A stretch of DNA of 64,000 nt from Natranaeroarchaeum aerophilus (GTDB taxonomy: Archaea > Halobacteriota > Halobacteria > Halobacteriales > Natronoarchaeaceae): contig NZ_JAKRVY010000011.1 of NCBI RefSeq assembly GCF_023638055.1, positions 1-64,000 on the forward strand, in the 5' to 3' direction. The position numbers were made by a program, and so were the translations under genes. The notes beneath the pieces are model-generated. The model searched no databases. It saw only the letters and a program-made list of their open reading frames with translations, and was not told where the DNA came from. Below, in pieces: positions 3,707 through 27,234 of this stretch (the stretch's first letter is position 1; each line of letters opens with the position of its first letter).

Positions 3707-5392
3707 TTATTCTGATCCCTCTGAGGTGTCCTCAATTAGGATTGAATCGGCAGGAAGGTTCAACAAGTAAGCAGACTTCTCAATCAAATAATCGCGGTGT
3801 GCCTCAATCGCTTCTGGAGACCAATCACCATAGTCTCTGCGAGCTACTCGCAGTGCCAGGTCGAAACTTGAACGCGGTTTACCCCGCTTCCCCTGATAGA
3901 TAGCAGCTTTCTCATCAAATGGCTTCTGAGCAGCCTTTGCATTGAGATCGTACTGTAGAGGAATCAAATTCCCGAGCGTGTTTCTCAACTGACTTGCCTC
4001 CTCTCTGCTGAAATTGTCTTCCCAGTAATCGTATTTTTCCATTGCAGAAGCGTATGACTTGGGAAGCACGTGTTCTATATGCATTCCACCGCCTCTCTTC
4101 TTAATCCGCTCAACCTTCTGCGAATCACTCAGGCTGTATTCAATAGCAATCAGCAGGCTCTTGTGCCACTTTTCGTCTCCATATACATTATCAGAATACA
4201 GGCCATCTCGAACCCGTTCCGGAATATTATCTCGCTTCCTCTTACTCTCAATATACTCCTGGATCTCCTCCAAACTGGCACCATCACGCAGCAGAGTCAG
4301 AATCTTGATTGAGGGTATCTTGATTTTCTCACTGGTATAGTCTCCAATCCAGTACGAATAGTAGAATCCGATGAGCTCATCACGCAACTCGTCAAAGTAA
4401 TCAAGACCGTCTTTCTTAGCGCCAATAAGAATCGTCTTCCAATACAAAGTATGTGACAGATTTTCTAGGATGAAGATTTCTTTCGAACCTGAGTTTTCGA
4501 TCAGGTTGTAATTGTCCACGAAGTCCCGAATATCTTTGACAATTTTCTTAGGGTTCTGTCCTTCAAACTCGGACTTCAGCTCCTGATACCTCGTTTCCTG
4601 TGCCTTGGACTGTTGAAGATACAGCCGATACATTCCAAGGATACTGTCCAAGGTATCATAGTCATCATCAACCTTCGTAGTGATTTCCTGCCAGACCTCG
4701 ATTACATCGTCCTTGTCTTCATCATCCTCCAAATTGCTAAGCAGATAGCTCTTGGTGAGATCAGAAACCGTCAAATCCTTCCCACGAGTATTGATGGTCT
4801 GGAAAAGCCTGACAGCATGTGTAAGATCATCGCTGATGATTCTAATCAGTTCGATATTCTGATCGATGAACTCGAAGAAGTCGTTGAGATCTTCATGTCT
4901 ATCTCCAAACTTTGTCTCCAGACAATCTATCAGGATTTCAGCAGCCTCAGTGTACCTGTTTTCCTCGTCTAAGTCTATCGATTTGAGTACTGATTGTTCA
5001 AGATCAGTTTGCTTACTTGTTCTCAACCGAGGCCTCTCTAACGCCTGTTCATGGAGTCTTCCTTCGACCCTTCTCTTGTTCATATCGCTCAAGTAATCGT
5101 GGAAATGGTCGTTGAAGATTGCATAGAGAATGATGAGAGAAGTCATCCTCTGCTGTCCATCCAATATATCAAAACGTGAATCGCCGTCCTCTTTCACCAA
5201 AATAACCGATCCCAGGTAGTAGGGACTGTCTCGGTCCTCACTCCACGATTCGTAGAGGTCATCAATCAACTGATCAATATGCGATTTCTCCCAGCTATAC
5301 GGTCGCTGATACCGAGGAATTTGATAAAGGTCCTCCTCACCATCAAACAGATCCCGGCACTTCACCGGATCCGGATTGAAACTGTGCTGCAT
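3707..5392 (-). CDS. DUF262/DUF1524 protein (GmrSD-like type IV restriction)
   Basis: A 561-residue protein with both hallmark domains of the GmrSD/SspE/BrxU group. The N-terminal DUF262 (ParB-like NTPase fold) has the motif FDILDGQQRMTSLI at residues 75-88. The C-terminal DUF1524 has an HNH-type motif HIEHVLPKS near residue 437 followed by LGNLIPL. Family members use NTP hydrolysis to trigger cutting of modified phage DNA. Here both domains are in one chain and no partner adjoins it. The gene is more AT-rich than its neighbours, which suggests transfer from another source, and it sits between two decayed TFB fragments. The ATG at 5390-5392 fits the family start (MQHSFNPDPVKCRDLF). Confidence 0.88.
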   Translation of the reverse strand: MQHSFNPDPVKCRDLFDGEEDLYQIPRYQRPYSWEKSHIDQLIDDLYESWSEDRDSPYYLGSVILVKEDGDSRFDILDGQQRMTSLIILYAIFNDHFHDYLSDMNKRRVEGRLHEQALERPRLRTSKQTDLEQSVLKSIDLDEENRYTEAAEILIDCLETKFGDRHEDLNDFFEFIDQNIELIRIISDDLTHAVRLFQTINTRGKDLTVSDLTKSYLLSNLEDDEDKDDVIEVWQEITTKVDDDYDTLDSILGMYRLYLQQSKAQETRYQELKSEFEGQNPKKIVKDIRDFVDNYNLIENSGSKEIFILENLSHTLYWKTILIGAKKDGLDYFDELRDELIGFYYSYWIGDYTSEKIKIPSIKILTLLRDGASLEEIQEYIESKRKRDNIPERVRDGLYSDNVYGDEKWHKSLLIAIEYSLSDSQKVERIKKRGGGMHIEHVLPKSYASAMEKYDYWEDNFSREEASQLRNTLGNLIPLQYDLNAKAAQKPFDEKAAIYQGKRGKPRSSFDLALRVARRDYGDWSPEAIEAHRDYLIEKSAYLLNLPADSILIEDTSEGSE

Positions 5393-10426: not shown

Positions 10427-12943
10427 TCATTGTGCTTGGAACTCCGCTCGACTCGCCGTAAGCAACACCTCACCGAGCTGTTTATTCAAATGACGGTTCG
10501 CGTTCCCACAATGAGGAGAATGAATACAGGAGGGACACCCTTCTTCACAGTTGCATTGTGTTACAAGCGATCGCGTTTCCTCGAGCAAAGAGTGCAAGCT
10601 CTCGAACGCTGCCCGGCAATACCCAGCGCCCCCTTCGAACCCATCATGAATGAAGATCGTTCCGCCGGTCGTTTGTGAGTGTCGTTCGATCGAGAGACCC
10701 CCAATATCCGCGCGGTCGCACAATACTTCTCGCGGAAATAAGGAGATCATCGCATGTTCGGCTGCGTGAAGGGCGTTCCCCCACCCTTCCGCATCAGTCG
10801 CTTTTTTACGAACGGCGGCCTCTAACCGGTTCGGGAACTCCAAGACGAGTCCAGTTGTCGTATATTCCGCCGGTGGGAGAGGCTCGTCGATCGGTCGTTC
10901 GACTGGGTTATCATCTTTTAGATTGTCGTGGTAGAGGTAGCTCTCAACTTGCTCGGTGACGGCCACCTTTGCAAGCGTTTTTTTGACATCAATCCCGTTC
11001 CAATTGACCGTTCCTCGTTTTATTGAATCTTTAATAAGGATCTCTTTGTCAGTGATCGCCTCAGTGTACGCCTGCGTCTGTTCGGACTCTAACCGTGCCT
11101 CGCCGTTTTGCACATCAAAATCGGTTACCTTGTACGTACGTTTCTGGTGGGTGTAAAGCGCACCAGGATGAGCGTCTCGCATCGCCGACTGGTACTGCAA
11201 TTCCCCAATGGTGTCATCGTTCAATCGATCCTGAAGAGTTATTTGTTGGCCTTTGATGCCACGGATATCCGTGTTCAGTTGGGGATCGTCCTCGTTAGTA
11301 CCCCAGAGGATCCGTTCGCGTTCATCGACAGATTGAATTCGACCGTTCTCTTTTAGTTGACGAATGACCGATGGGAATAGTTCTCCAAAGTGCTTTTTAT
11401 CATCCGGTTCGAGCCACCAGTCATCGGCCGCAGAGACCACGTGGTCGGGGAGAATCGCCTCGTTCTCTGGGTTTACTATTGCTGCCTCGACATCACCGTC
11501 AAACAGTTGGTCAGGATCACGCATTACATACTGGTCGAGAGGATCGTCCCCACCGACGAGAATAATTAAAGAGTCATCATCACCACGGCCCGCACGTCCA
11601 GCTCGTTGAAACGTTGACATTCGCGTTCCCGGATACCCATCTAGAATAACGACATCCAGTGTGCCAATGTCGATGCCTAATTCCATCGCTTCTGTAGACC
11701 ACACTCCGCGAGCATCACCGTTCCGAAGCGCTTCCTCTAGTTCGATACGAGGGTCATTGTCGAGTGCACCATGGTATGCATGAATGCGCTCTGCGAGATC
11801 ATCGCGATTACGACCACGGAGCAGGCGGTCTGATCGTTCGGCATACTGTGCGGCTCCTTGCCGGGAACGAGTAAATACAATTGTTTGGTATCCACGTTGG
11901 ACTAGATCAGCAAAAAGACGGACGGATTCTTGATGATGTGACCGTCGTTCCCCACCCTGGACGGTATCACGGTGTGGTATCGCCCGGGGCTGGGAGCTGT
12001 CATTGTCCGTGTCCGGCGCTACCGGCGCGCCAGGGTTATTCCCAACCGGAGCTCTTTGGTCGGCACTGTTCGATTCCTGAGATTCAATCTCGCTCGACTG
12101 ATCTCCATCGGATGTATCCTCCGACTTCAGTGGCGGATTCCATAGCAACCAGTGTTCATCACCTGTCAGTGACGCATCCTCGTCAATGAGCGTAAACGAT
12201 TCCGAGGGTTGGTCGGTGATCGTCGACGCATGTTCGACCGGGTTTCCTATTGTCGCTGAGCAACAGATGTACGACGGATCCGCGTTCAGTCGCTCGCACA
12301 GCCGGTTCAGGCGCCGAAAGACAAGTGAGATATGACTCCCGAAGTGGCCTCTGTTCATATGGACCTCGTCAATGATAATCGTGCCAAGTTGGCGGAACAG
12401 CCATTCCCAATTTCGACTCGAGTTCCCATAGGGGACGACCGAGAGATGGATTTGATCGATGGTCGTGAGGACGATGTCGGGCTGTTTCTCTCGTTTTAAT
12501 TGTTCTTTTTCAGCCTCCTTTGTTTGTCCCGTTTGAACACCAACGTCGATGTCGTACCCGAGGTCATCAGCATAGTCTTGAAAAGTCTTAGCCTGATCGT
12601 TGATCAGGGCCCGATATGGTGCGATATAGAGCGTCTTTTCGTTTTGTTCTACCGCTCGCTCCAGCGCCGGTATTAGATAGGTTAGAGACTTACCAGACGC
12701 TGTGGGCGTCGCAACGACTGTGTTCTCTCCGTCTCGAACAGCTTTGATCGCTTGTACCTGGTGGTCGTACAACTGATCAATACCACGACGATCTAAAGCT
12801 GCATTCACAGCCGGCAGCATATCCAACGATGATGTCGATGCAGACTGTCCAGATAGTGTCCGATGATCGGTGATCTGTCCGTTGTAATAATCCCGATCTT
12901 GCAACCATGACACGGTCTCGGGAATGGAGGGACGCTCGGTCAT
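10427..12943 (-). CDS. DUF1998 DEAD/DEAH helicase (Hrq1/MrfA-like)
   Basis: An 838-residue superfamily 2 helicase. The core has Walker A TPTASGKS and the DEVH box IIIDEVHMNRG, SAT (CCSATIGN), and motifs V/VI EAMELGIDIG and QRAGRAGR. The C-terminal DUF1998 domain ends in a four-cysteine zinc site CNCEEGCPSCIHSPHCG. This layout is that of Hrq1 and bacterial MrfA (YprA), which repair interstrand crosslinks with the nuclease MrfB. An acidic low-complexity insert lies at about residues 275-330. The only MrfB-like sequence in the window is the truncated gene at 49673-50146. The ATG at 12941-12943 follows AT-rich promoter sequence. Confidence 0.9.
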   Translation of the reverse strand: MTERPSIPETVSWLQDRDYYNGQITDHRTLSGQSASTSSLDMLPAVNAALDRRGIDQLYDHQVQAIKAVRDGENTVVATPTASGKSLTYLIPALERAVEQNEKTLYIAPYRALINDQAKTFQDYADDLGYDIDVGVQTGQTKEAEKEQLKREKQPDIVLTTIDQIHLSVVPYGNSSRNWEWLFRQLGTIIIDEVHMNRGHFGSHISLVFRRLNRLCERLNADPSYICCSATIGNPVEHASTITDQPSESFTLIDEDASLTGDEHWLLWNPPLKSEDTSDGDQSSEIESQESNSADQRAPVGNNPGAPVAPDTDNDSSQPRAIPHRDTVQGGERRSHHQESVRLFADLVQRGYQTIVFTRSRQGAAQYAERSDRLLRGRNRDDLAERIHAYHGALDNDPRIELEEALRNGDARGVWSTEAMELGIDIGTLDVVILDGYPGTRMSTFQRAGRAGRGDDDSLIILVGGDDPLDQYVMRDPDQLFDGDVEAAIVNPENEAILPDHVVSAADDWWLEPDDKKHFGELFPSVIRQLKENGRIQSVDERERILWGTNEDDPQLNTDIRGIKGQQITLQDRLNDDTIGELQYQSAMRDAHPGALYTHQKRTYKVTDFDVQNGEARLESEQTQAYTEAITDKEILIKDSIKRGTVNWNGIDVKKTLAKVAVTEQVESYLYHDNLKDDNPVERPIDEPLPPAEYTTTGLVLEFPNRLEAAVRKKATDAEGWGNALHAAEHAMISLFPREVLCDRADIGGLSIERHSQTTGGTIFIHDGFEGGAGYCRAAFESLHSLLEETRSLVTQCNCEEGCPSCIHSPHCGNANRHLNKQLGEVLLTASRAEFQAQ

Positions 12944-18039: not shown

Positions 18040-18387
18040 ATGAGTCAACAACAGAGTGACGACACCGCCTCAATCGACGACATCCCGGTCGATATCGACA
18101 CCACACAATCAGCAGAGATCGATCCCGCCGACGTCCCCGACGAAATCGAGTCCATCACCCGTAGTCTCGCCGATGAGCAGCCGCCAACGAATCCGCTGGT
18201 CGTGCTGAAAGCGGCGCGCTGGTGGTACATTCACGGTAAGGGCGGGACAGATCCCGCCTTCCAGTGGGCCATCGAGTGGGCGCGTCACCTTGCAATAGAC
18301 AAACCCAGTGAATACGAGCGGTCCGACGAGTTCCTTGAGTACCTCGTCACAGTCGGCTTCGCTGACGAACCTCACGAACTCCGCTAA
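18040..18387 (+). CDS. Small acidic protein, unknown, with a truncated copy at 24036
   Basis: A 115-residue protein with an acidic disordered start (SIDDIPVDIDTTQSAEIDPA) and a conserved-looking core, VLKAARWWYIHGKGGTDPAF then QWAIEWARHLA. The last 66 codons are repeated at high identity at 24036-24233. No family is recognised. The gene lies between inverted repeat B and a decayed DUF234 ATPase gene. Confidence 0.65.
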   Translation: MSQQQSDDTASIDDIPVDIDTTQSAEIDPADVPDEIESITRSLADEQPPTNPLVVLKAARWWYIHGKGGTDPAFQWAIEWARHLAIDKPSEYERSDEFLEYLVTVGFADEPHELR

Positions 18388-18405: not shown

Positions 18406-19139
18406 GTGCGCCTGCTCTTTATCACTGATCCGCGTGTTAGGAACCAGAATATAATAGTTCAAACTATTATAGTTCTATTCCTAATTCCGGAGCGTATAAA
18501 CGAGATCACCAAAGGAGCCGGCATCGAGAACACCAACACGTCGTACTACTTCGACCGGCTGGAAACGCTCCAGATCATCAAGAAACACCATCCAGCACTC
18601 GCCGACCCGGCGCGCAGCAAGCGGACCCGGTACCAGATTCGTGATCCCGTATTCCGGTTTTACTTCCGCTATCTCTACGGCCGCGAGGGACAGTACGAAC
18701 TCTACGGCGAGAACGCCTACGCGGATCTCATCAAACCGGAATTGCCTGACTTCGTAAGCGAAACGTTCGAATCGCTCTGTCACCAGGTTGTGCCAGATCT
18801 CTATGCAGACTACCAACTCACGCAGGTGCCAAGGCAGTGGTGGTACAAGGGCCGGAGGTAGATGTTGTCGCAACAACTGACGAGTCAACGCTGATCGCTG
18901 GCGAAGCGAAATTCACCAACACTCCCCTCGGCTATGACGGGCTCGCGGGTCTCGAAGACGACGTCCCCTATATCGACTGGACACCACCTGGAGGCGATGA
19001 GCCGACGTATGAATTCGCCTTGTTCAGCCGCTCTGGGTTCAAACGCTCCGTCGAGGAAGCAGCAGACGAACGTGAGGACCTCCGTCTCTTCGATCTCTCC
19101 GATATCGTTGCCGTTCTCGAGAGTGGGACCGACCAGTAA
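18406..19139 (+). pseudogene. Archaeal ATPase with DUF234 domain, 5'-truncated and frameshifted
   Basis: Only the C-terminal half of an archaeal MoxR/AAA_14-type ATPase with a DUF234 nuclease-like domain remains. The first frame reads INEITKGAGIENTNTSYYFD, RYQIRDPVFRFYFRYLYG and ends near WWYKG. The next frame, from about 18850, continues as EVDVVATTDESTLIAGEAKF, which is the DUF234 catalytic strand pair (E-V-D then E-x-K). The ATPase core with Walker motifs is missing. The DNA just at the break with upstream sequence contains a perfect palindrome (18451-18470). Confidence 0.75.
18451..18470. repeat. AT-rich palindrome at the broken ATPase 5' end
   Basis: ATAATAGTT, 2 nt, AACTATTAT: perfect 9-bp arms. 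It lies where the upstream part of the DUF234 ATPase is lost and may mark a junction or an old promoter/operator. Confidence 0.6.
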
Positions 19140-19230: not shown

Positions 19231-19245
19231 AACCTATAAAAATCT
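19231..19245 (+). promoter_or_regulatory. Promoter of the three-gene AAA+ operon
   Basis: The TATA-like AACCTATAAAAATCT is centred about 28 nt before the ATG at 19265. That spacing fits a leaderless archaeal transcript and decides the start of the first gene, against upstream in-frame ATGs at 19205 and 19229. Confidence 0.6.
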
Positions 19246-19264: not shown

Positions 19265-20365
19265 ATGTCATTGGAAGGGCCGGGACGCCCGATATTCGAG
19301 TGGCTTGACGACGGATATCTCGAGAGACTCGTCGTCAAACTCAATGCACTCCCATCTGGCGACCAATTCCAGCGGGAAGTAGTCGAGGATCTCGAACAAA
19401 AACTTGGGATTGCGGGTACAGAACGGACCTATGAGGAGCTCCAGGACGCACATGGGGCGCTCGTCGGTTCGATAGAAGGCGACGAGGATCGACTACCATG
19501 GTGGTTGTCGGAATTCGAGTGGACAGTCAACAGTGAACAGCTATCACGACTCACGCTGGAAAGTAGTACGTTGGGTGAATTTGAAGAATATCCTCGTGAA
19601 TCGACCTACGTCGAGTCGATTGAACTGACCGGTGCGACAACATTTCGAAAGACACTCGATGCTCTCGTCAGCCTGGAGGGCGAACTCAACCAAGTCTTGG
19701 AGGCTGATCCCGCTGCCCTCGCGAAAGACTATGATATCGATCCGAGTGACTACAATATCCCAGATCAGTTCTTCGAGCTACCGGAGGCGAGTGTCGCAAC
19801 GACGAGTTCTGCAGAAGAATGGGTTCAGCAGGTAATCAGTCTTTGTCCACCCGCAGACCCATCGCTCACGGCGTTATTACGTGTAAACGTTGGAGTAAAG
19901 CAACGACACGCTAAAAAGGAATTAGACGATGAGGAACGACAGCGATTGGAGACACTCAAACTCATCACGTCCGACGAAGAAGACGAGCGAATTTTCAATG
20001 AAACGTACTATGAGAATCTCATTCAGTTGCTTGAGACCGACGCCCCCTTCGACCTGTCAATCGATATTTCGAGTGACAAGGATGATCTGACGGCACTTCA
20101 GTATCTCTTCTATCGGTCTTGGGCAGAGAATATTGAGCGACGACTGCCTGAGGAACAACGATGGCTGCAGGCGGTGAAGAATCAGTCGGACCTCGATGAA
20201 GGAGAGCAATTTCGGTTTGCTAGCTACGCATTCCGAATGCCGATTCGTCTCGACAAAAACCAACCAGTCTTCACCCACCAAAGTAGGTACGGGAGTGACC
20301 GATATGTCCGAAGTCAGATTCTGCAATTGCTCTCAGAACATGGCCATCCAGCAGATAATGACTGA
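19265..20365 (+). CDS. Unknown protein, first gene of a three-gene AAA+ operon
   Basis: A 366-residue acidic protein (MSLEGPGRPIFEWLDDGYLE) with no recognised domain. Predicted mostly helical, with stretches such as TTFRKTLDALVSLEGELNQV and a C-terminal segment of about 120 residues containing DLTALQYLFYRSWAENIERR. The C-terminal RYVRSQILQLLSEHG could be a DNA-binding helix pair. There are no obvious catalytic motifs, membrane segments or zinc sites. Its stop overlaps the start of the next gene (ATGACTGA), so all three genes are coupled. By order it may be a recruiting or adaptor subunit; that is inference only. Confidence 0.7.
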   Translation: MSLEGPGRPIFEWLDDGYLERLVVKLNALPSGDQFQREVVEDLEQKLGIAGTERTYEELQDAHGALVGSIEGDEDRLPWWLSEFEWTVNSEQLSRLTLESSTLGEFEEYPRESTYVESIELTGATTFRKTLDALVSLEGELNQVLEADPAALAKDYDIDPSDYNIPDQFFELPEASVATTSSAEEWVQQVISLCPPADPSLTALLRVNVGVKQRHAKKELDDEERQRLETLKLITSDEEDERIFNETYYENLIQLLETDAPFDLSIDISSDKDDLTALQYLFYRSWAENIERRLPEEQRWLQAVKNQSDLDEGEQFRFASYAFRMPIRLDKNQPVFTHQSRYGSDRYVRSQILQLLSEHGHPADND

Positions 20366-22175
20366 CAAGAAAAACAGTCGACAAAATGTCCCTGAAGACG
20401 AAGACACCAGCGAGCGACACTCTCATGTCACAGGGACGAATACTGCGTCTGACTCTGGTGGAGAAGGAGAAACGGAGATGGACCGCCCTGACGGTGAGAT
20501 TACGCTTGCCATCGAACAAATTGAGATCAGCAACACTAATGAACAGGTGCAAATCCCGACCAGTCCACGCCCTATCTCGGAACTAGAAAGGTCAAATGAC
20601 CTATCAACCGACAAGATCTCGCTGGAGCGGATTTCACACTCGATCTCGAAATCACGGACTCCAAAATCCACCCTCGAACTGCCGGATTCCAAGCTTGTTC
20701 CGTACCGGGTTTCAGTCCGGCGGCGAACAGAAACAACAACAGAACAGTCCTCGTCGTCCCCACAAAAGCAGGCGCAACAGACGAACAGAGGCCAAACTGT
20801 TAGTGAGCAAGAGATTACCGTAACGCGGCTGCGCGAGCGAGTTGACCATGAGTCACAGCCGCAGTCTTCACAACTCACTCCAGTAGCTGGCAATCAACAA
20901 CTACTGGATGAACTGGAGGATTCTGATCCGGTCTTTCGCTGGGGGGGTGGGATGCCCTATAGTAATGATCGACCCGTCTGTATCGTCCATCGCGAAACAG
21001 AAAGCGTTCCTTCGTTCGAGTTTCTGCAGCGATCTCTCCGAGACGCATATTCGGAGCTACGTGGTGGGGAACCATCTGTTAAACACGCAGAATTCGTCGC
21101 GAACGAACTCCGGATACCCGAGGTATCAGGGTCGATCGTCACACTAGACGTCTCGGGAGACGAGTGGTCGCCGTCACAGACGAACGATCGGCCGGCAATC
21201 GAGTATGCCGGGGTCGACATCGTTCCGGACCTTGTTAACCAAGTGAAGGATCTCTATAGCGGCGGGCTCGGATATTTTCTCATCAACGTCCCACAACGGT
21301 GGGAGAACTCAATCCGCTTCGGTGACTTCAGCCAGAACCTTGTCGAGCATCTCACCGCTGCAACACTCCCCGGCGATGAGGTACCGACAGGAATTCTTGA
21401 GAAACTACAATCGGCACCAGTCTCGATTGCGACACCATACGTTACTGAAATGGATGCATTCGATGACCGAATCTCGCATTATTATGCATTCGATGGGAGA
21501 CCGGAATCCTGGGAGTCAATCGCACAGGCAGATAGTGCTTTTCAGCGGCTCTTGCGGAGCGGCCGCTGGACACAAGTTATACTCACAGAACGGCAGGCTG
21601 CGGGCGAAGAAAGTGACCAGCACTACAATTGGAAAGGATTGCTCATCGAAGGATTAGCTTTGGCACTGTGGCAGAAAACTGATCCCGAAATCCCGTTCAA
21701 CACGTTCGTCCGGGAAACACTCCTCGAAAAAGATGCTCTGAAGAGTGAACATGAACTGAATGACCAAGAATCCCCAGTTGCAGATATCTATCTCGACACG
21801 ACATTAGACCATACCGACGAGGCACTGAGGAAGTTCTTGCTCGGTGAAGAAGGCGAATCGATCGAGGTCGGTCTTCCAGCTGCTTTCGAGTTTGAGACCG
21901 GATTTTCGGAGGGGGCATTCCAATATCGAAAAATGATCGAATCGATCGAAAAATATCGCGGCCAGATGGACTCAGTTAGTTCGATCTATCTGATCATCCC
22001 GCCACGCATTCTCTATCGCGGGAAAAAGCAGGCACAACTAGTTCTCGACCTCGTGACGACTGAAGCAACACAGTTTGACGAGTCTACCGTCGAGCTCTGT
22101 ATTCCCGTTTTGGAGAGCGGGAGATGTATCGGACTGCGACGTGCAGAACCGCTTATCGATGCACTCTACGACTAA
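20358..22175 (+). CDS. Long protein with disordered N-terminus and PD-(D/E)XK-like C-terminus
   Basis: A 605-residue protein starting at ATG 20358 in the overlap with gene one. Residues 1-175 are Ser/Thr/Gln/Glu-rich and probably disordered. The middle (PVFRWGGGMPYSNDRPVCIV onwards) is a globular domain of unknown type. The last 190 residues have the order expected of a restriction-endonuclease-like fold: an acidic helix (NWKGLLIEGLALALWQK), a strand with Asp (PVADIYLDTTL), an E-x-E/T strand (PAAFEFETGFSEG) and a supporting helix-strand (SIYLIIPPRILYRGKKQAQL). It also contains a sequence-typical YFLINVPQRW strand. The last residues overlap the AAA+ gene by 1 nt (TAATG). The nuclease reading is inference from motif spacing; the family is not recognised. 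Confidence 0.65.
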   Translation: MTDKKNSRQNVPEDEDTSERHSHVTGTNTASDSGGEGETEMDRPDGEITLAIEQIEISNTNEQVQIPTSPRPISELERSNDLSTDKISLERISHSISKSRTPKSTLELPDSKLVPYRVSVRRRTETTTEQSSSSPQKQAQQTNRGQTVSEQEITVTRLRERVDHESQPQSSQLTPVAGNQQLLDELEDSDPVFRWGGGMPYSNDRPVCIVHRETESVPSFEFLQRSLRDAYSELRGGEPSVKHAEFVANELRIPEVSGSIVTLDVSGDEWSPSQTNDRPAIEYAGVDIVPDLVNQVKDLYSGGLGYFLINVPQRWENSIRFGDFSQNLVEHLTAATLPGDEVPTGILEKLQSAPVSIATPYVTEMDAFDDRISHYYAFDGRPESWESIAQADSAFQRLLRSGRWTQVILTERQAAGEESDQHYNWKGLLIEGLALALWQKTDPEIPFNTFVRETLLEKDALKSEHELNDQESPVADIYLDTTLDHTDEALRKFLLGEEGESIEVGLPAAFEFETGFSEGAFQYRKMIESIEKYRGQMDSVSSIYLIIPPRILYRGKKQAQLVLDLVTTEATQFDESTVELCIPVLESGRCIGLRRAEPLIDALYD

Positions 22176-23803
22176 TGACTGACAAAACGTTCGGTGCTTG
22201 GCTGCATACACAACTCGACAATACCCTCGAAGAGATTCGACTATCGTTACAGGATGAACGTGGATGGCTGGCACCAGATCAGCTTGGTGACGACACAACC
22301 TACACATTCACGCTCCGAGACAATAGTCGGAACCCGACCGACCACTATCATCTGATAACTGACGACGCAGACGAGTTGAGACAAACACACTGGATCCAGT
22401 ACGAGTTCGCTCAGGCTGATGAGGAAGAAGCTGAGTTCCGGACACGTCTTATTCTCGAACTACCACTCGATATCGAGGCGTTCCGCAATCGAGTGACGGA
22501 ACCAATCACGCTCACGGCAGAGGAGATCAAGTCGCTTAAGACCCATAATGGAGTTCGCTCAGCCTCTGCTGGACGGGTCGCTGGTCTCGACTCGCAAAAG
22601 CGAGAGCTACGACAGTTCCTCCGGATGTCGAATGCTGAATGGGGACTGTCAGACCGGACAGGGATACTTTTGGAGGGACCACCTGGGACTGGTAAAACGG
22701 AACTCGTTATCGAGACCTGCCAAGAGGAGTTTAACGGGATGCCAGTCACGATATCCGGACCCGAGATCCTCAGTAAATGGGTCGGTGAGTCCGAGAGATT
22801 ACTACGGAAGAAATTCGAGGAAGCCCGAAACGCAGACACGAACGTTCTCTATATCGACGAGATCGACGCGATCGCACGCAGTCGCAGCGAAGCCTCACAG
22901 GAACATAGTGCACAACTCGTTGCTCAACTCTTAGTTCTGCTCGATGGGGTCGACGCGAAGACCAATGAGGCGCCGAAAGTTATTGCCTCTACGAATCTCT
23001 CCAAAGTACTGGATCCTGCACTCCTCCGTCCGGGACGGCTCGGTAACGAACCGATCTCGTTCCCGCGTCCAGACAAACCTCAACGTAAAGCGATCATCCA
23101 TCACTACATCGAACAGATTCGGCGACAGAATCCCGAGCATCTCACGACACCACTTCAAGGACTAGCCAAGCAGCCGATAGGATCCAGTTTGCTTACAGAA
23201 CTCGCCGAGGAGACGGAGGGGTTCACTGGTGCTGATGTCGAGGATGTGTTCATCGAGGCCGCGGTCAACGCACAGACAGGTCAAGAGGGGCTGCAATCAC
23301 TTAGCGTCGATATCGTCCGGGATGTCATCAGGAATCGGGAGATCTACCGTTCCGATTTCTACAATGACCAGTGGTTAGAAAAGTCAAAGAACGCGATTTC
23401 CTTCGAGAGCGCAGGTGAGGTCGCGATCGTGGACGATGACGTTGAGATAGATGTGCGAGATCTCGTGGATGCGTGGGCAGCAGAACTCATCAGCTCCGGT
23501 AGCAAACCAGTATGTTTTCGGAAGGTCACACTTGCTCAGCTTCTAATGCACGATGTTGGAGATACTCGCGATCGAATCGTTGAAGTTTTCCAGCGAAATG
23601 CCGACGATGGCCTCTGCGTGTATATCGCTGGGCTGCCACGACTCCTTCAGATGCGGGATCAAACGAATCTCGCAGACACCGCATTAGAAACAATCCACGA
23701 ACAACTCCTCCAGTGGAACGAAAATAATCTTCTCCTGCACAACAACCCGGGAGAATCAGTCAGTCGGCTGTCTGGCCAATATCGAGACTATGATACCAAA
23801 TAA
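22175..23803 (+). CDS. CDC48/PAN-type AAA+ ATPase, third gene of the operon
   Basis: A 542-residue protein with one classical AAA+ module: Walker A GPPGTGKT at 168-175, Walker B VLYIDEIDAIARSR with the DE at 228-229, sensor ASTN, arginine finger region LLRPGRLG, and an AAA lid with GFTGADVEDVFIEAAV. The first 130 residues are a separate domain (PDQLGDDTTYTFTLRDNS) in the place where CDC48-type proteins bind substrates. The last 140 residues are unique. Such ATPases remodel or unfold proteins. Direct coupling to a nuclease-like protein and an unknown protein suggests a defence complex in which the ATPase senses or loads. It starts at ATG 22175, overlapping the previous stop. Confidence 0.88.
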   Translation: MTDKTFGAWLHTQLDNTLEEIRLSLQDERGWLAPDQLGDDTTYTFTLRDNSRNPTDHYHLITDDADELRQTHWIQYEFAQADEEEAEFRTRLILELPLDIEAFRNRVTEPITLTAEEIKSLKTHNGVRSASAGRVAGLDSQKRELRQFLRMSNAEWGLSDRTGILLEGPPGTGKTELVIETCQEEFNGMPVTISGPEILSKWVGESERLLRKKFEEARNADTNVLYIDEIDAIARSRSEASQEHSAQLVAQLLVLLDGVDAKTNEAPKVIASTNLSKVLDPALLRPGRLGNEPISFPRPDKPQRKAIIHHYIEQIRRQNPEHLTTPLQGLAKQPIGSSLLTELAEETEGFTGADVEDVFIEAAVNAQTGQEGLQSLSVDIVRDVIRNREIYRSDFYNDQWLEKSKNAISFESAGEVAIVDDDVEIDVRDLVDAWAAELISSGSKPVCFRKVTLAQLLMHDVGDTRDRIVEVFQRNADDGLCVYIAGLPRLLQMRDQTNLADTALETIHEQLLQWNENNLLLHNNPGESVSRLSGQYRDYDTK

Positions 23804-23868: not shown

Positions 23869-24035
23869 TCTCAGACGACTCCGAGACTCTCGTCCTGACT
23901 TTTCGGTAGATTTACTGTCACCGATGTTTCTGGACTGCTGCGTCCCCCGGTTAACGAGATCAACGGTGAGTAGAGACTTCACACGACCAAAGTCGAAACC
24001 GCGGACGACGACTCAGCGGTAAGCAGCCGCTGTCG

Positions 24036-24233
24036 AATCCACTGATCGTGCTAAAAGCGGCGCGCTGGTGGTACATTCACGGTAAGAGCGGAACGGATCC
24101 CACTTTCCAGTGGGCCATCGAATGGGCGCATCACCTTGCGACCGACGCGCCCAGTTACGTCGAGCGGTTCGGCGAGTCCCTCGAGTACATTGTCAGGGTC
24201 GGTTTCACTGATGAAAAGGAAACGCTTCGCTGA
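24036..24233 (+). pseudogene. N-terminally truncated copy of the 18040 gene
   Basis: The frame reads NPLIVLKAARWWYIHGKSGT, then FQWAIEWAHHLATDAP and ends at TGA 24231. It matches the last 66 codons of the gene at 18040-18387 closely at both DNA and protein level, including an identical GCGGCGCGCTGGTGGTACAT. Only scrambled traces of the shared upstream part (CAGCCGCTG for CAGCCGCCA) are visible. An internal GTG at 24048 could still start a 61-residue protein. The two copies are direct repeats 5.85 kb apart that bracket the DUF234 remnant and the three-gene operon. Confidence 0.75.
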
Positions 24234-24380: not shown

Positions 24381-24536
24381 TTTGGCTTATCTGACGTGTG
24401 CGCGGTTTTTAATACCACACCCTGCCATCTATCCGTGTTTAAATTATTTTCGTGAAGCGGTATTTTTCTGCGCCCCCGAGGGGTGCGGCGCGGTCTGAAC
24501 AGACGCAGTCGCCGTGATCTTGATTCGGTGAACACA

Positions 24537-25469
24537 ATGGCTACGACCAGTAATTCGTCGGTCTCCTTCGAGCAGACCGACACGCGATCAGACGAGATGA
24601 ACAGCACTATCGAACAGTGGATCGACGACCTCGTCGCCGGCGTCGACGACGCGCAGGCCAGCGCAGAGTTCCAGGAGTGGCTTGACGTCCAGAGTCGGTT
24701 CCACGATTATTCGTATCGGAACACGCTTCTCATCAAGCGCCAGTGTCCCCAGGCAACCCAGGTAGCGGGCTACCGGACATGGCAAGAGGAATTCGACCGC
24801 CACGTTGAGGAGGGCGAGTCGGCCATCTGGATCTGGGCGCCGATTATCGCAAAGCAGTGTCCGGAGTGTGAGAACTCGCCGAGTTACCACAAGAACAGCG
24901 ACTGTGAGTATGACGAGACGCCGCCTGAAGAGTGGTCGAAGGGGCTGGTCGGATTCAAGCCGGCGCCGGTGTTCGACGTCTCTCAGACCGAAGGCGAACC
25001 GCTTCCTGATCTCGACACGGAAGCAACCGGGGACGCCGGCGACCTCGTCGAACAGTTGACTGCCGCCGCTGATGAACTCGGCGTGACGGTGCGGATCGTT
25101 CCCGACGAAGACTGGACCCACGGCGAGGCGAAAGGCATCTGCGAGCAGCTGAGTCTCGTCGATATGCAACCGCGTGTCGAGGTGCGTGATCGGGCGAACG
25201 AGGCCGACCTCGCGCGGACCCTGATCCACGAGTACGCCCACGCCCTGCTCCACTTCGACGTCGACGACCACACCGAGCGGTCGAAACGCGAAGTCGAGGC
25301 CGAAGCCGTCGCGTACGTCGTCGGGCGGTACTGGGGTCTGGATACCAGTGGGTCGGCGTTCTACCTAGCCGCGTGGGAGTCGGACGATCCCGAGATCGTT
25401 CGCGACCGTCTCGACCGGATCAGTTCCACAGCAGAAGAGCTCATCGACGTGCTCGAAGACGGCGTCTGA
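24537..25469 (+). CDS. ArdC-like/ImmA-type zinc metallopeptidase
   Basis: A 310-residue protein. The N-terminal third (IEQWIDDLVAGVDDAQASAE, YSYRNTLLIKRQCPQATQVA then GYRTWQEEF) matches the ArdC-type single-stranded DNA-binding domain found on plasmids. A four-cysteine insert (CPECENSPSYHKNSDC) may bind zinc. The C-terminal domain is an ImmA/IrrE-type (DUF955) peptidase with HEYAH at 231-235 and a downstream Glu (REVEAEAVAYVVG). ArdC-family proteins protect incoming plasmid DNA from restriction. The ATG at 24537 gives the normal acidic start; the upstream in-frame segment is Arg-rich. Inverted repeat C starts 4 nt after the stop. Confidence 0.85.
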   Translation: MATTSNSSVSFEQTDTRSDEMNSTIEQWIDDLVAGVDDAQASAEFQEWLDVQSRFHDYSYRNTLLIKRQCPQATQVAGYRTWQEEFDRHVEEGESAIWIWAPIIAKQCPECENSPSYHKNSDCEYDETPPEEWSKGLVGFKPAPVFDVSQTEGEPLPDLDTEATGDAGDLVEQLTAAADELGVTVRIVPDEDWTHGEAKGICEQLSLVDMQPRVEVRDRANEADLARTLIHEYAHALLHFDVDDHTERSKREVEAEAVAYVVGRYWGLDTSGSAFYLAAWESDDPEIVRDRLDRISSTAEELIDVLEDGV

Positions 25470-25515: not shown

Positions 25516-25594
25516 GTCTGCTCGTCTCCGCCGTCCGCGGTAGTCGCAAGGCTAAAGCAGGCCCGTGTTTATACTCTATGTAAGAAACGCAGGT

Positions 25595-26425
25595 ATGAGT
25601 ACCATAAAACAATCTCAAAATATACGCCAGGGTCTCTCGACTCGAGAAAGTCGACTCCTCGCACGACTCGCTGGCGCGGGTCACCAGATCATCTCCGTCG
25701 ACGACATCGAGACGACGCTGGAGGTCCCCCCAAACACCGCCCGCGAGATCGCCTCCCGGCTCACCGAGAAGGGCTGGCTCGATCGGCTCTTCCCGGGCAC
25801 ATATCTCATCGTTCCACTCACAGCCGGCGAGGAAGCCGTGTACACCACCCACGAGTACCTCATCGCCGCCCACGTCGCCGAACCAATGTACATCGGTTAC
25901 TACAGCGCCCTCAGCCACCACGGGCTGACCGAACAGGTTCCCCGGACGGTGTACGTCGTCACGCCGACCCGAGCGCAAAGCCGAGAGATCCACGGTGTCC
26001 CGTACCGCGTCACGACAGTCACCGAGCGGAAGTTCTTCGGCTTTGAGCCGACATCCATCGAGGGCACGACCGTTCAGGTCAGCGACCTTGAGAAGACACT
26101 GGTCGACTGTGCGGACCACCCCGAGTTCTGTGGAGGCCTTCGGGAACTTGCGACCGCGATGCGTACTGCCGACGAACAGGGTTGCGACTGGCTCACTGTC
26201 GGCGAGTACCTCGAGCGCCTCGACAACGGCGCGGCGACCAAGCGGATCGTCTACCTCGCCGACCAGCTCGGCATCGACCTCCCCGCCCGCGAGGAACTCG
26301 TCGCGTCGTTCACGAGTGGCTACTCGTTGCTGGACCCGACGCGACCCGACACCGGATCGACCGACAGTACGTATCGCCTCCGAATCAACGTGGAGCCAGC
26401 CATGCTGGAGCCGACGGAGTCCTGA
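25595..26425 (+). CDS. AbiEi-type antitoxin
   Basis: A 276-residue protein of the AbiEi family. The N-terminal winged helix (ESRLLARLAGAGHQIISVDD and NTAREIASRLTEKGWLDRLF, PGTYLIVPL) is followed by the AbiEi-core, with the typical YIGYYSALSHHGLTEQVPR and DLEKTLVDCADHPEFCGGL. In type IV toxin-antitoxin systems this protein represses the operon and counteracts the nucleotidyltransferase toxin. A TATA box (GTTTATAC, 25567-25574) about 28 nt before ATG 25595 indicates a leaderless start. The toxin gene follows after 5 nt. Confidence 0.88.
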   Translation: MSTIKQSQNIRQGLSTRESRLLARLAGAGHQIISVDDIETTLEVPPNTAREIASRLTEKGWLDRLFPGTYLIVPLTAGEEAVYTTHEYLIAAHVAEPMYIGYYSALSHHGLTEQVPRTVYVVTPTRAQSREIHGVPYRVTTVTERKFFGFEPTSIEGTTVQVSDLEKTLVDCADHPEFCGGLRELATAMRTADEQGCDWLTVGEYLERLDNGAATKRIVYLADQLGIDLPAREELVASFTSGYSLLDPTRPDTGSTDSTYRLRINVEPAMLEPTES

Positions 26426-26430
26426 TCGCG

Positions 26431-27234
26431 ATGATCAGTCAGGACCGGCTCCGGATTCTCGCTCGCGAACTGGGCGTTCGGCAAGGGTACGCCGAAAAGA
26501 ACTACGTCAATTCGTGGCTCCTCTGGGGCATCTTCACGAGCAGCTACGGCGACAACCACCTGTTCAAAGGCGGGACCGCGCTGTCCAAGCTGTATTTCCC
26601 GCAATCGTGGCGATTCTCGGAGGACCTCTATTTTGGCGTCGAAGGGGAGTACCAGGGGTCCAAACAAGAGCTCCGAACGGTCCTCGATACGATTGCCGAC
26701 CGCTCTGGCATCGAATTCGAGATTCGCGAGCACCACGAATCCCAGCAGGACCACTACCCGACCCACTACGTCGACATCAGCATTCAGTACCGCGCCGTCC
26801 TTAACCACCCCAACACGACCAGCATCGACGTGATGGTCGACGAGCACGTCGCCTTCGACCCTGTTCAGCACACGCACGCGTACGAAGACGTGCCCGAATT
26901 CGATCTCCAGGCGTACAGCGTCGAGGAGATCTTCGCCGAAAAGCTCCGGGCGATCTACCAGCGCGGGGCCGCCCGTGACTACTATGATCTCTATCAGCTG
27001 CTCGAAACCGATTCGGTCGCGATCAACTTTGCCGACGTCAGACCCGCCTTCGACGCGAAGTGCAAACACGATGGGCTCACTGTTGATCTGAACGACGGAC
27101 TCCCGGACGAACAACAAGAAACGATCCGCCACCAGTGGGAGACCACGCTGCCGGACCTGACCGGTGATCCGCCGGCGTTCGAGATGGTCTGGGAACAGTT
27201 GGACACGGCGATCTCCCGACAGGGATCTTCGTAG
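26431..27234 (+). CDS. AbiEii-type nucleotidyltransferase toxin with a lost catalytic Asp
   Basis: A 267-residue AbiEii protein: FKGGTALSKLYFPQSWRFSE at about residues 48-67, a family-typical IDVMVDEHVAFDP strand, and VEEIFAEKLRAIYQRGAARD then YYDLYQLLE. The signature SEDxDF reads SEDLYF here, because the codon for the second Asp is TAT rather than GAT. That Asp belongs to the metal-binding D-x-D of this fold, so nucleotidyl transfer should fail. The rest is intact. Start ATG 26431; a longer upstream frame overlaps AbiEi and is non-coding. This may be a toxin that was silenced while its antitoxin was kept. Confidence 0.88.
   Translation: MISQDRLRILARELGVRQGYAEKNYVNSWLLWGIFTSSYGDNHLFKGGTALSKLYFPQSWRFSEDLYFGVEGEYQGSKQELRTVLDTIADRSGIEFEIREHHESQQDHYPTHYVDISIQYRAVLNHPNTTSIDVMVDEHVAFDPVQHTHAYEDVPEFDLQAYSVEEIFAEKLRAIYQRGAARDYYDLYQLLETDSVAINFADVRPAFDAKCKHDGLTVDLNDGLPDEQQETIRHQWETTLPDLTGDPPAFEMVWEQLDTAISRQGSS

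Follow-up and report, generated by a model that had tools for sequence, protein, structure and literature searches.

A three-gene operon, whose genes are here called A, B and C, lies within a window of 64,000 nucleotides (nt) of the Natranaeroarchaeum aerophilus genome (contig NZ_JAKRVY010000011.1, positions 1 to 64,000; C11 in this analysis), which belongs to a haloarchaeal assembly of 3.29 Mb in total. A-B-C is a real, conserved and mobile unit that joins a probable nuclease (B) to an intact unfoldase (C), and its composition is new. The three genes would form one functional unit, most likely a sensor-effector-remodeller system against mobile elements (viruses or plasmids) in which A and C control the nuclease B, a reading that I hold with about as much doubt as confidence.

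Organization, linkage and distribution of A-B-C

The operon and its putative promoter comprise the following features:

19235-19242, + strand: TATA-box-like TATAAAAA, about 27 nt 5' of the gene A ATG, a candidate promoter element read from the sequence
19265-20365, + strand: gene A, 366 amino acids (aa), mostly helical, new family, core PWWLxxFxW motif
20358-22175, + strand: gene B, 605 aa, predicted nuclease
22175-23803, + strand: gene C, 542 aa, CDC48-type AAA+ ATPase that has an N-terminal domain of its own and, at the C-terminus, a lobe of low conservation

By the spacing rule for haloarchaeal TATA boxes and leaderless transcripts, the position of TATAAAAA before gene A is consistent with leaderless transcription. 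A sigma-70 promoter scan is inapplicable to archaea and did not enter this reading. The preliminary description of this DNA had spoken of three genes overlapping by their stop and start codons, and indeed A overlaps B by 8 nt (ATGACTGA) and B overlaps C by 1 nt (TAATG). Short overlaps recur elsewhere. At 12 other loci (L028, where gene A is in two pieces, being omitted), the A/B overlap measures 8, 4 or 11 nt everywhere but at L034, and the B/C overlap 8 or 4 nt everywhere but at L026 and L034.

Linkage of the three genes was followed through loci from the class-search genomes, two plasmid records and one metagenome-assembled genome. The preliminary description would have given up the operon had homologues proved unlinked elsewhere; they are linked in the order A-B-C, on one strand, at all 13 loci other than the window (L020-L031 and L034). 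A search with B of 391 genomes of the class found relatives in 11 of them, the window's own genome included, spread over five families, and a profile search of the same genomes with A returned exactly the 11 genomes that carry core B and no others; this core count leaves aside four weak B-like matches from the class search and one new match from the phylum search. Scanning genome contigs with the B profile, a pattern scan of limited sensitivity, gave four loci, all archaeal, three of which were already in hand (L032 = L027, L033 = L028, L035 = L031) and one of which, L034, was new. Pairwise distances between the proteins correlate (r = 0.91 for A/B, 0.84 for A/C and 0.86 for B/C, none of 5000 permutations reaching the observed value in each case), as expected of a cassette travelling as one. 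This test covered 12 of the 14 loci, with L028 dropped and L034 not included; L028 was also dropped from A2, A5 and A7, and L021 from the structure alignments.

The distribution is that of a patchy and mobile element that travels between lineages. The nearest B, at 66% identity, comes from a genome of another family (G232), the B of a same-family genome (G031) is about 31% identical, and no B relative was found in a genome of the same genus (G033) in the search of the 391. Some copies of A-B-C are on plasmids and several are on multi-megabase contigs. No relative of B was found in IMG/VR with a single-sequence query, or among 50,697 phage records, and none of A in IMG/VR.

Predicted activities of the three proteins

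Against Pfam, NCBIfam and PADLOC, with matches allowed up to E = 1, B gave nothing beyond one negligible NCBIfam match (E = 0.96, 9 bits for a cut-off of 225 bits). Its sequence divides into three parts, the last of which holds the candidate active site:

20358-20909, + strand: B residues 1-184, low-complexity tail with a recurrent h-x-h-x-[RKHQTE]-h motif
20919-21446, + strand: B residues 188-363, alpha/beta domain without Walker motifs, closest in fold to AAA+-like cores
21447-22172, + strand: B residues 364-605, PD-(D/E)XK-like nuclease domain with E418, H422, Y423, K426, E464, D476 and E511-x-E513
21888-21896, + strand: codons of the putative active-site pair E511-F-E513, third strand

When the 13 core B proteins are aligned, E418, H422, Y423, K426, D476, E511, E513-T514-G515, E518, R524 and K525 are invariant and E464 nearly so. 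The alignment was extended to 18 rows by adding L034 and four distant relatives (about 19-21% identity, one of them non-halobacterial), and H422, Y423, K426, E464, D476, E511 and E513 are invariant throughout. An AlphaFold2 model of B residues 175-605, built from 17 rows, reached a predicted local distance difference test score (pLDDT) of 86 and a predicted template modelling score (pTM) of 0.85. Its C-terminal half is predicted to adopt an alpha-beta-beta-beta-alpha-beta core (H246-267, E287-292, E300-305, E334-338, H350-357, E368-372) that places E464 on strand 1 and D476 on strand 2, with E511/E513 on strand 3 or at its end. Of the 50 rows listed by VIA-align for this model, eight cover the C-terminal half, with Z-scores of 6.0-6.8, and these are BstEII, EcoT38I, PaqCI, VC1899 and Can2, all of which I take to be of the PD-(D/E)XK class. 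Since the topology, the pattern of residues and the matches, which are all of one kind, point the same way, the C-terminal half of B is predicted to be a PD-(D/E)XK nuclease whose active site is of the E-x-E type, in which the acidic D476 and E511 stand on strands 2 and 3 (invariant in 17-18 rows) and E513 occupies the usual position of the lysine. Some restriction enzymes, BamHI for example, are active with an E-x-E or E-x-Q site.

In fold comparison, residues 188-363 of B resemble AAA+-like cores (VIA-align Z up to 7.0, 3.5 Å over 125 residues, e.g. 3glf_A). That this middle domain is a degenerate copy of the AAA domain of C was considered and rejected: the AAA-like resemblance comes from fold comparison alone, and hhalign does not support it (E 0.15). 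As to the tail, its motif (hydrophobic-x-hydrophobic-x-basic/polar-hydrophobic) occurs 23 times in 13 tails, compared with 6.1 in shuffled sequences (standard deviation 2.4; none of 500 shuffles reaches 23), an excess that is overstated because the tail rows are related. The tail is likely a docking strap to A and/or C.

C matches AAA-type and P-loop models alone in the same profile search, the PF00004 score being 107 bits. Its motifs are located as follows:

22676-22699, + strand: Walker A, GPPGTGKT
22778-22786, + strand: pore loop W-V-G, unchanged across all 13 rows
22856-22861, + strand: Walker B, D-E

Walker A, the pore loop, Walker B, sensor 1 and the RPGR arginine fingers are present in all 13 rows, where single substitutions spare the catalytic residues. 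With these motifs intact, C can be expected to act as a threading ATPase. CDC48 proper has two consecutive active AAA domains, and C does not belong to it: C scores 147.3 bits on TIGR01243, whose cut-off is 802.65, and has one canonical AAA domain and a private N-domain. Its C-terminal lobe, present in 9 of the 13 rows, resembles AAA weakly (49 columns, hhalign E 0.0008, probability 24%).

A matched nothing in Pfam, NCBIfam or PADLOC up to E = 1. Its model, mostly helical, was obtained with good confidence (pLDDT 86) and found no useful fold match in the PDB or among viral models; Foldseek lists MarR-type winged-helix chains weakly, and the model may leave room for winged-helix parts. These listings are faint, so DNA binding by A would be a guess. 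From its fixed place before the nuclease gene, A is proposed to be the variable recognition or control partner.

The preliminary description had thus judged the first and third proteins correctly: A is without family or fold match at the thresholds used, and C is a clear AAA+ remodeller whose motifs are intact in every row. It had described B as a nuclease-like C-terminus behind a disordered region and had tied the proposal to a nuclease fold in that protein. Structure prediction supports the first half of this description, with a PD-(D/E)XK-like fold in the C-terminus; the second half needs amending, since the part called disordered carries a recurrent short motif.

Distant relatives of B and surroundings of the operon

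Profile searches also found distant B-like proteins at loci without a C-type gene (L051-L055). The B-like gene stands behind a partner of 222-226 aa at L051 and L052, and behind one of 482 or 317 aa at L054 and L055, the latter a locus of the same phylum reached by the phylum search alone. Between L054 and L055 the partners show relationship (BLAST 1.5e-9, hhalign 88%). That all these upstream partners are A was considered and discarded, hhalign finding no relation of A to the partners at L051/L052, L054 or L055. At L053 (5578-9789), a 1403-aa protein with a B-like C-terminus is encoded third and last in an Azaca-like cluster, the second gene of which matches ZacB (E 6e-17) and the first ZacA weakly (E 0.0018). 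ZacA and ZacB presumably designate the Azaca system. The name of that system is listed in PMC13321033. With B-like genes found behind such varied partners, the effector looks like a reusable module under different controllers.

Separately, the B-like gene and 226-aa partner of L052 (9100-10848) lie directly downstream of two BrxC genes and may belong to a BREX locus as a part not listed so far.

The window around A-B-C is dense in defence genes:

3707-5392: GmrSD-type enzyme
10427-12943: DEAD helicase with an MrfA Zn-binding domain
24483-25469: IrrE/ArdC-N-like protein
25565-27234: AbiEi/AbiEii pair

The preliminary description had pointed to this setting. Its account of the window is accurate but does not extend to the homologous operons. 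When the 114 neighbours of 13 operons were compared with PADLOC at E <= 1e-12, they matched 30 families, as against 95 for controls, a comparison that counts families and not proteins and in which the control figure is inflated by kinase-type models. The controls consisted of 114 of 121 proteins from 11 stretches, which were taken either from these genomes or from that of the window; genes were picked by a greedy call of open reading frames. The families shown number 25 for the neighbours, including TmtA (two proteins) and prokaryotic Argonaute (pAgo; one), and those of the controls include pAgo and AbiEi/AbiEii (one each). There being no clear enrichment, the dense defence setting characterizes this contig, and no generalization from it is possible. 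At two loci from two genera, TmtA (Tiamat) is encoded directly upstream of A on the same strand (L023:12217-18678, 2153 aa; L024:12075-18485, 2136 aa).

Further features of the window concern other genes. Between 29641 and 42643, one strand encodes a Piwi-domain Argonaute, a PLD-like protein, a calcineurin-like phosphoesterase, a Rad50/SMC-like AAA protein, NurA, a 219-aa protein without assigned family and HerA; this pAgo beside a full HerA-NurA and SbcCD-like set is possibly a composite pAgo system. Upstream of A-B-C, two overlapping open reading frames in different frames (18406-19139) read like one broken protein, presumably an archaeal ATPase C-terminus, and adjoin a 23-nt inverted repeat with a 2-nt gap (18437-18484, 78% complementary). 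The operon is also flanked by a 115-aa gene (18040-18387) and a partial 204-nt copy of it (24012-24215), 81-82% identical and about 5.8 kb apart. This repeat is not taken as proof that the operon was inserted or recombined there: a search of 31 genomes found the gene in 9, its own included, with up to three copies, and it is read as a commonly duplicated haloarchaeal gene.

Proposed function of A-B-C and comparison with known systems

In the proposed mechanism, B would be the effector, a PD-(D/E)XK-fold nuclease with an E/D/E-x-E metal site that cuts DNA or RNA. A, with or without the B tail, would restrain B or recognize the invader within the complex that the three proteins would form. C, as a hexameric CDC48-type unfoldase, would use ATP to thread or remodel protein through its W-V-G pore loop; by pulling on A, or by stripping proteins bound to the nucleic acid of the invader, it would free B to cut.

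Several observations weigh against this reading. Taken alone, Foldseek gives no match at E <= 0.001 for B or for A, and the Z-scores of 6.0-6.8 that relate B to nucleases are middling by VIA-align's own note. The active-site lysine is replaced by E513, so the activity of B could be weak or lost. In two genomes, G382 and G217, gene A is broken by a split or a frameshift (the G217 match lies in two frames), which may be assembly error or decay. The neighbours of the operons show no clear PADLOC enrichment; the preliminary description, which had called A-B-C a candidate defence operon, is upheld for the three-gene unit, with defence as a putative role. Finally, some operons are near plasmid replication or partition genes: L020 has replication factor A, TFB and sliding-clamp genes among its neighbours, L022 has ParA and L026 has DNA polymerase B.

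This last proximity, together with a neighbour control that does not favour defence, would suit an operon of plasmids and integrated elements that assists DNA repair or replication, C and B processing stalled or damaged nucleoprotein complexes to the advantage of the element itself, without any part in immunity. PMC10470531 also describes a nuclease complex of Haloferax volcanii with which Cdc48a is associated during recovery from DNA damage. Such a role is nonetheless unlikely, given that A-B-C is rare and patchy (11 of 391 genomes), that several copies are on multi-megabase contigs, and that the distant B-like genes have BrxC and Azaca-like genes beside them. Those same B-like genes, being also found behind unrelated partners without C, could instead recall a toxin-antitoxin-like or plasmid-addiction module, in which A would restrain a toxic nuclease B and C would control its release; A is always upstream of B in the core set and the overlap of their frames is conserved, as such a module would have it. 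With three genes over about 4.5 kb, including an ATPase, the operon is however large for addiction, and no known toxin or antitoxin family was matched in Pfam, NCBIfam or PADLOC, which makes this explanation quite improbable.

The E-x-E motif without lysine raises another question, namely whether B is a catalytically dead PD-(D/E)XK fold that binds nucleic acid while the system acts through the unfoldase. The chance of this appears slim: a dead fold would not need E464, D476, E511 and E513, which are invariant in 17-18 rows, and some restriction enzymes with E-x-E or E-x-Q sites, such as BamHI, are active. It draws its support from the Type III-A CoCoNuT extensions, in which, according to PMC11090510, a CDC48-like ATPase stands beside an inactivated PD-(D/E)xK protein.

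Among known systems, Type III CBASS, which consists of a HORMA sensor, the remodeller TRIP13 and the nuclease NucC, works by a logic that the sensor-effector-remodeller reading of A-B-C shares. In both, a sensor and a remodeller of the AAA+ kind would go with a nuclease of the PD-(D/E)XK type, and C scores on the PADLOC TRIP13 models; A-B-C is nevertheless not such a system, for no nucleotide cyclase (CD-NTase) or HORMA family is found in A or B (Pfam, NCBIfam and PADLOC, searched as far as E = 1) and C scores higher on CDC48 and IetA models. Likewise, C matches the PADLOC IetA models (E 1.7e-20), IetA being the AAA+ ATPase that works with a subtilisin-like protease in IetAS, but reaches 68.6 bits on the NCBIfam IetA model for a cut-off of 510, and neither A nor B matches a protease family of Pfam or NCBIfam. 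McrBC, an AAA+ GTPase with the PD-(D/E)XK partner McrC, shares the pairing of an AAA+ ring with a nuclease. It too was set aside, since C is a classical CDC48-clade AAA that matches the classical AAA models far better than AAA_5, and no McrB or McrC model of Pfam, NCBIfam or PADLOC matches A, B or C. Can2 and Card1 combine a Rossmann-like domain with a PD-(D/E)XK domain, and B, in which an alpha/beta domain precedes the nuclease, has its best root mean square deviation among the nuclease rows with Can2 (Z 6.7, 2.9 Å over 121 residues). In that comparison, however, the nuclease half alone aligns well, and the rows listed on B 188-363 are AAA-like, with no CARF domain, the N-terminal sensor of ring nucleotides in such nucleases, and no other sensor fold among them, an absence from the list that excludes nothing.

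The pairing of an unfoldase with a nuclease thus has precedents, in the Cdc48a-associated complex and in CoCoNuT operons, whose role is predicted to be immune and where, according to PMC11090510, a CDC48-type AAA+ ATPase is encoded by the side of a protein with a PD-(D/E)XK fold. There the ATPase has tandem domains of which the second alone is active, the PD-(D/E)xK protein is inactivated and the operon is of the McrBC type. A-B-C differs in that the first AAA domain is intact, B keeps its acidic active-site residues, the operon has no McrB or McrC and the host is archaeal. A CDC48-family arCOG that may include C-like proteins is listed as associated with viruses or plasmids in a 2014 survey of archaeal dark matter (PMC4158269). 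A and B are absent from Pfam, NCBIfam, PADLOC 2.0.0 and PHROGs and are new families relative to these libraries. The preliminary description knew of no named system with this composition, and the profile libraries and a literature search bear it out: no published description of A-B-C was found, a provisional result in that subscription papers and preprints are mostly outside the literature searched.

An immune role of A-B-C is likely but unproven. A bolder and rather doubtful extension makes A-B-C the first example of a new class of archaeal immunity centred on one effector module, a B-type nuclease with a motif-bearing tail. This module would be plugged into different controllers, namely the sensor A with a CDC48-type unfoldase in A-B-C, small unrelated partners at other loci (at one of them behind two BrxC genes) and a fusion protein in the Azaca-like cluster, and the unfoldase would switch the nuclease by pulling on the sensor complex; the class would be an archaeal counterpart of sensor-remodeller-nuclease immunity in which the sensor is not shared. 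Archaeal immunity beyond CRISPR is poorly charted. If the operon protects its host, two protein families, A and the effector B, would be added to it from beyond the profile libraries searched, and a CDC48-type unfoldase would be seen to work with a nuclease in prokaryotic immunity. The reusable B module, if it is one, would provide a handle for finding further systems.

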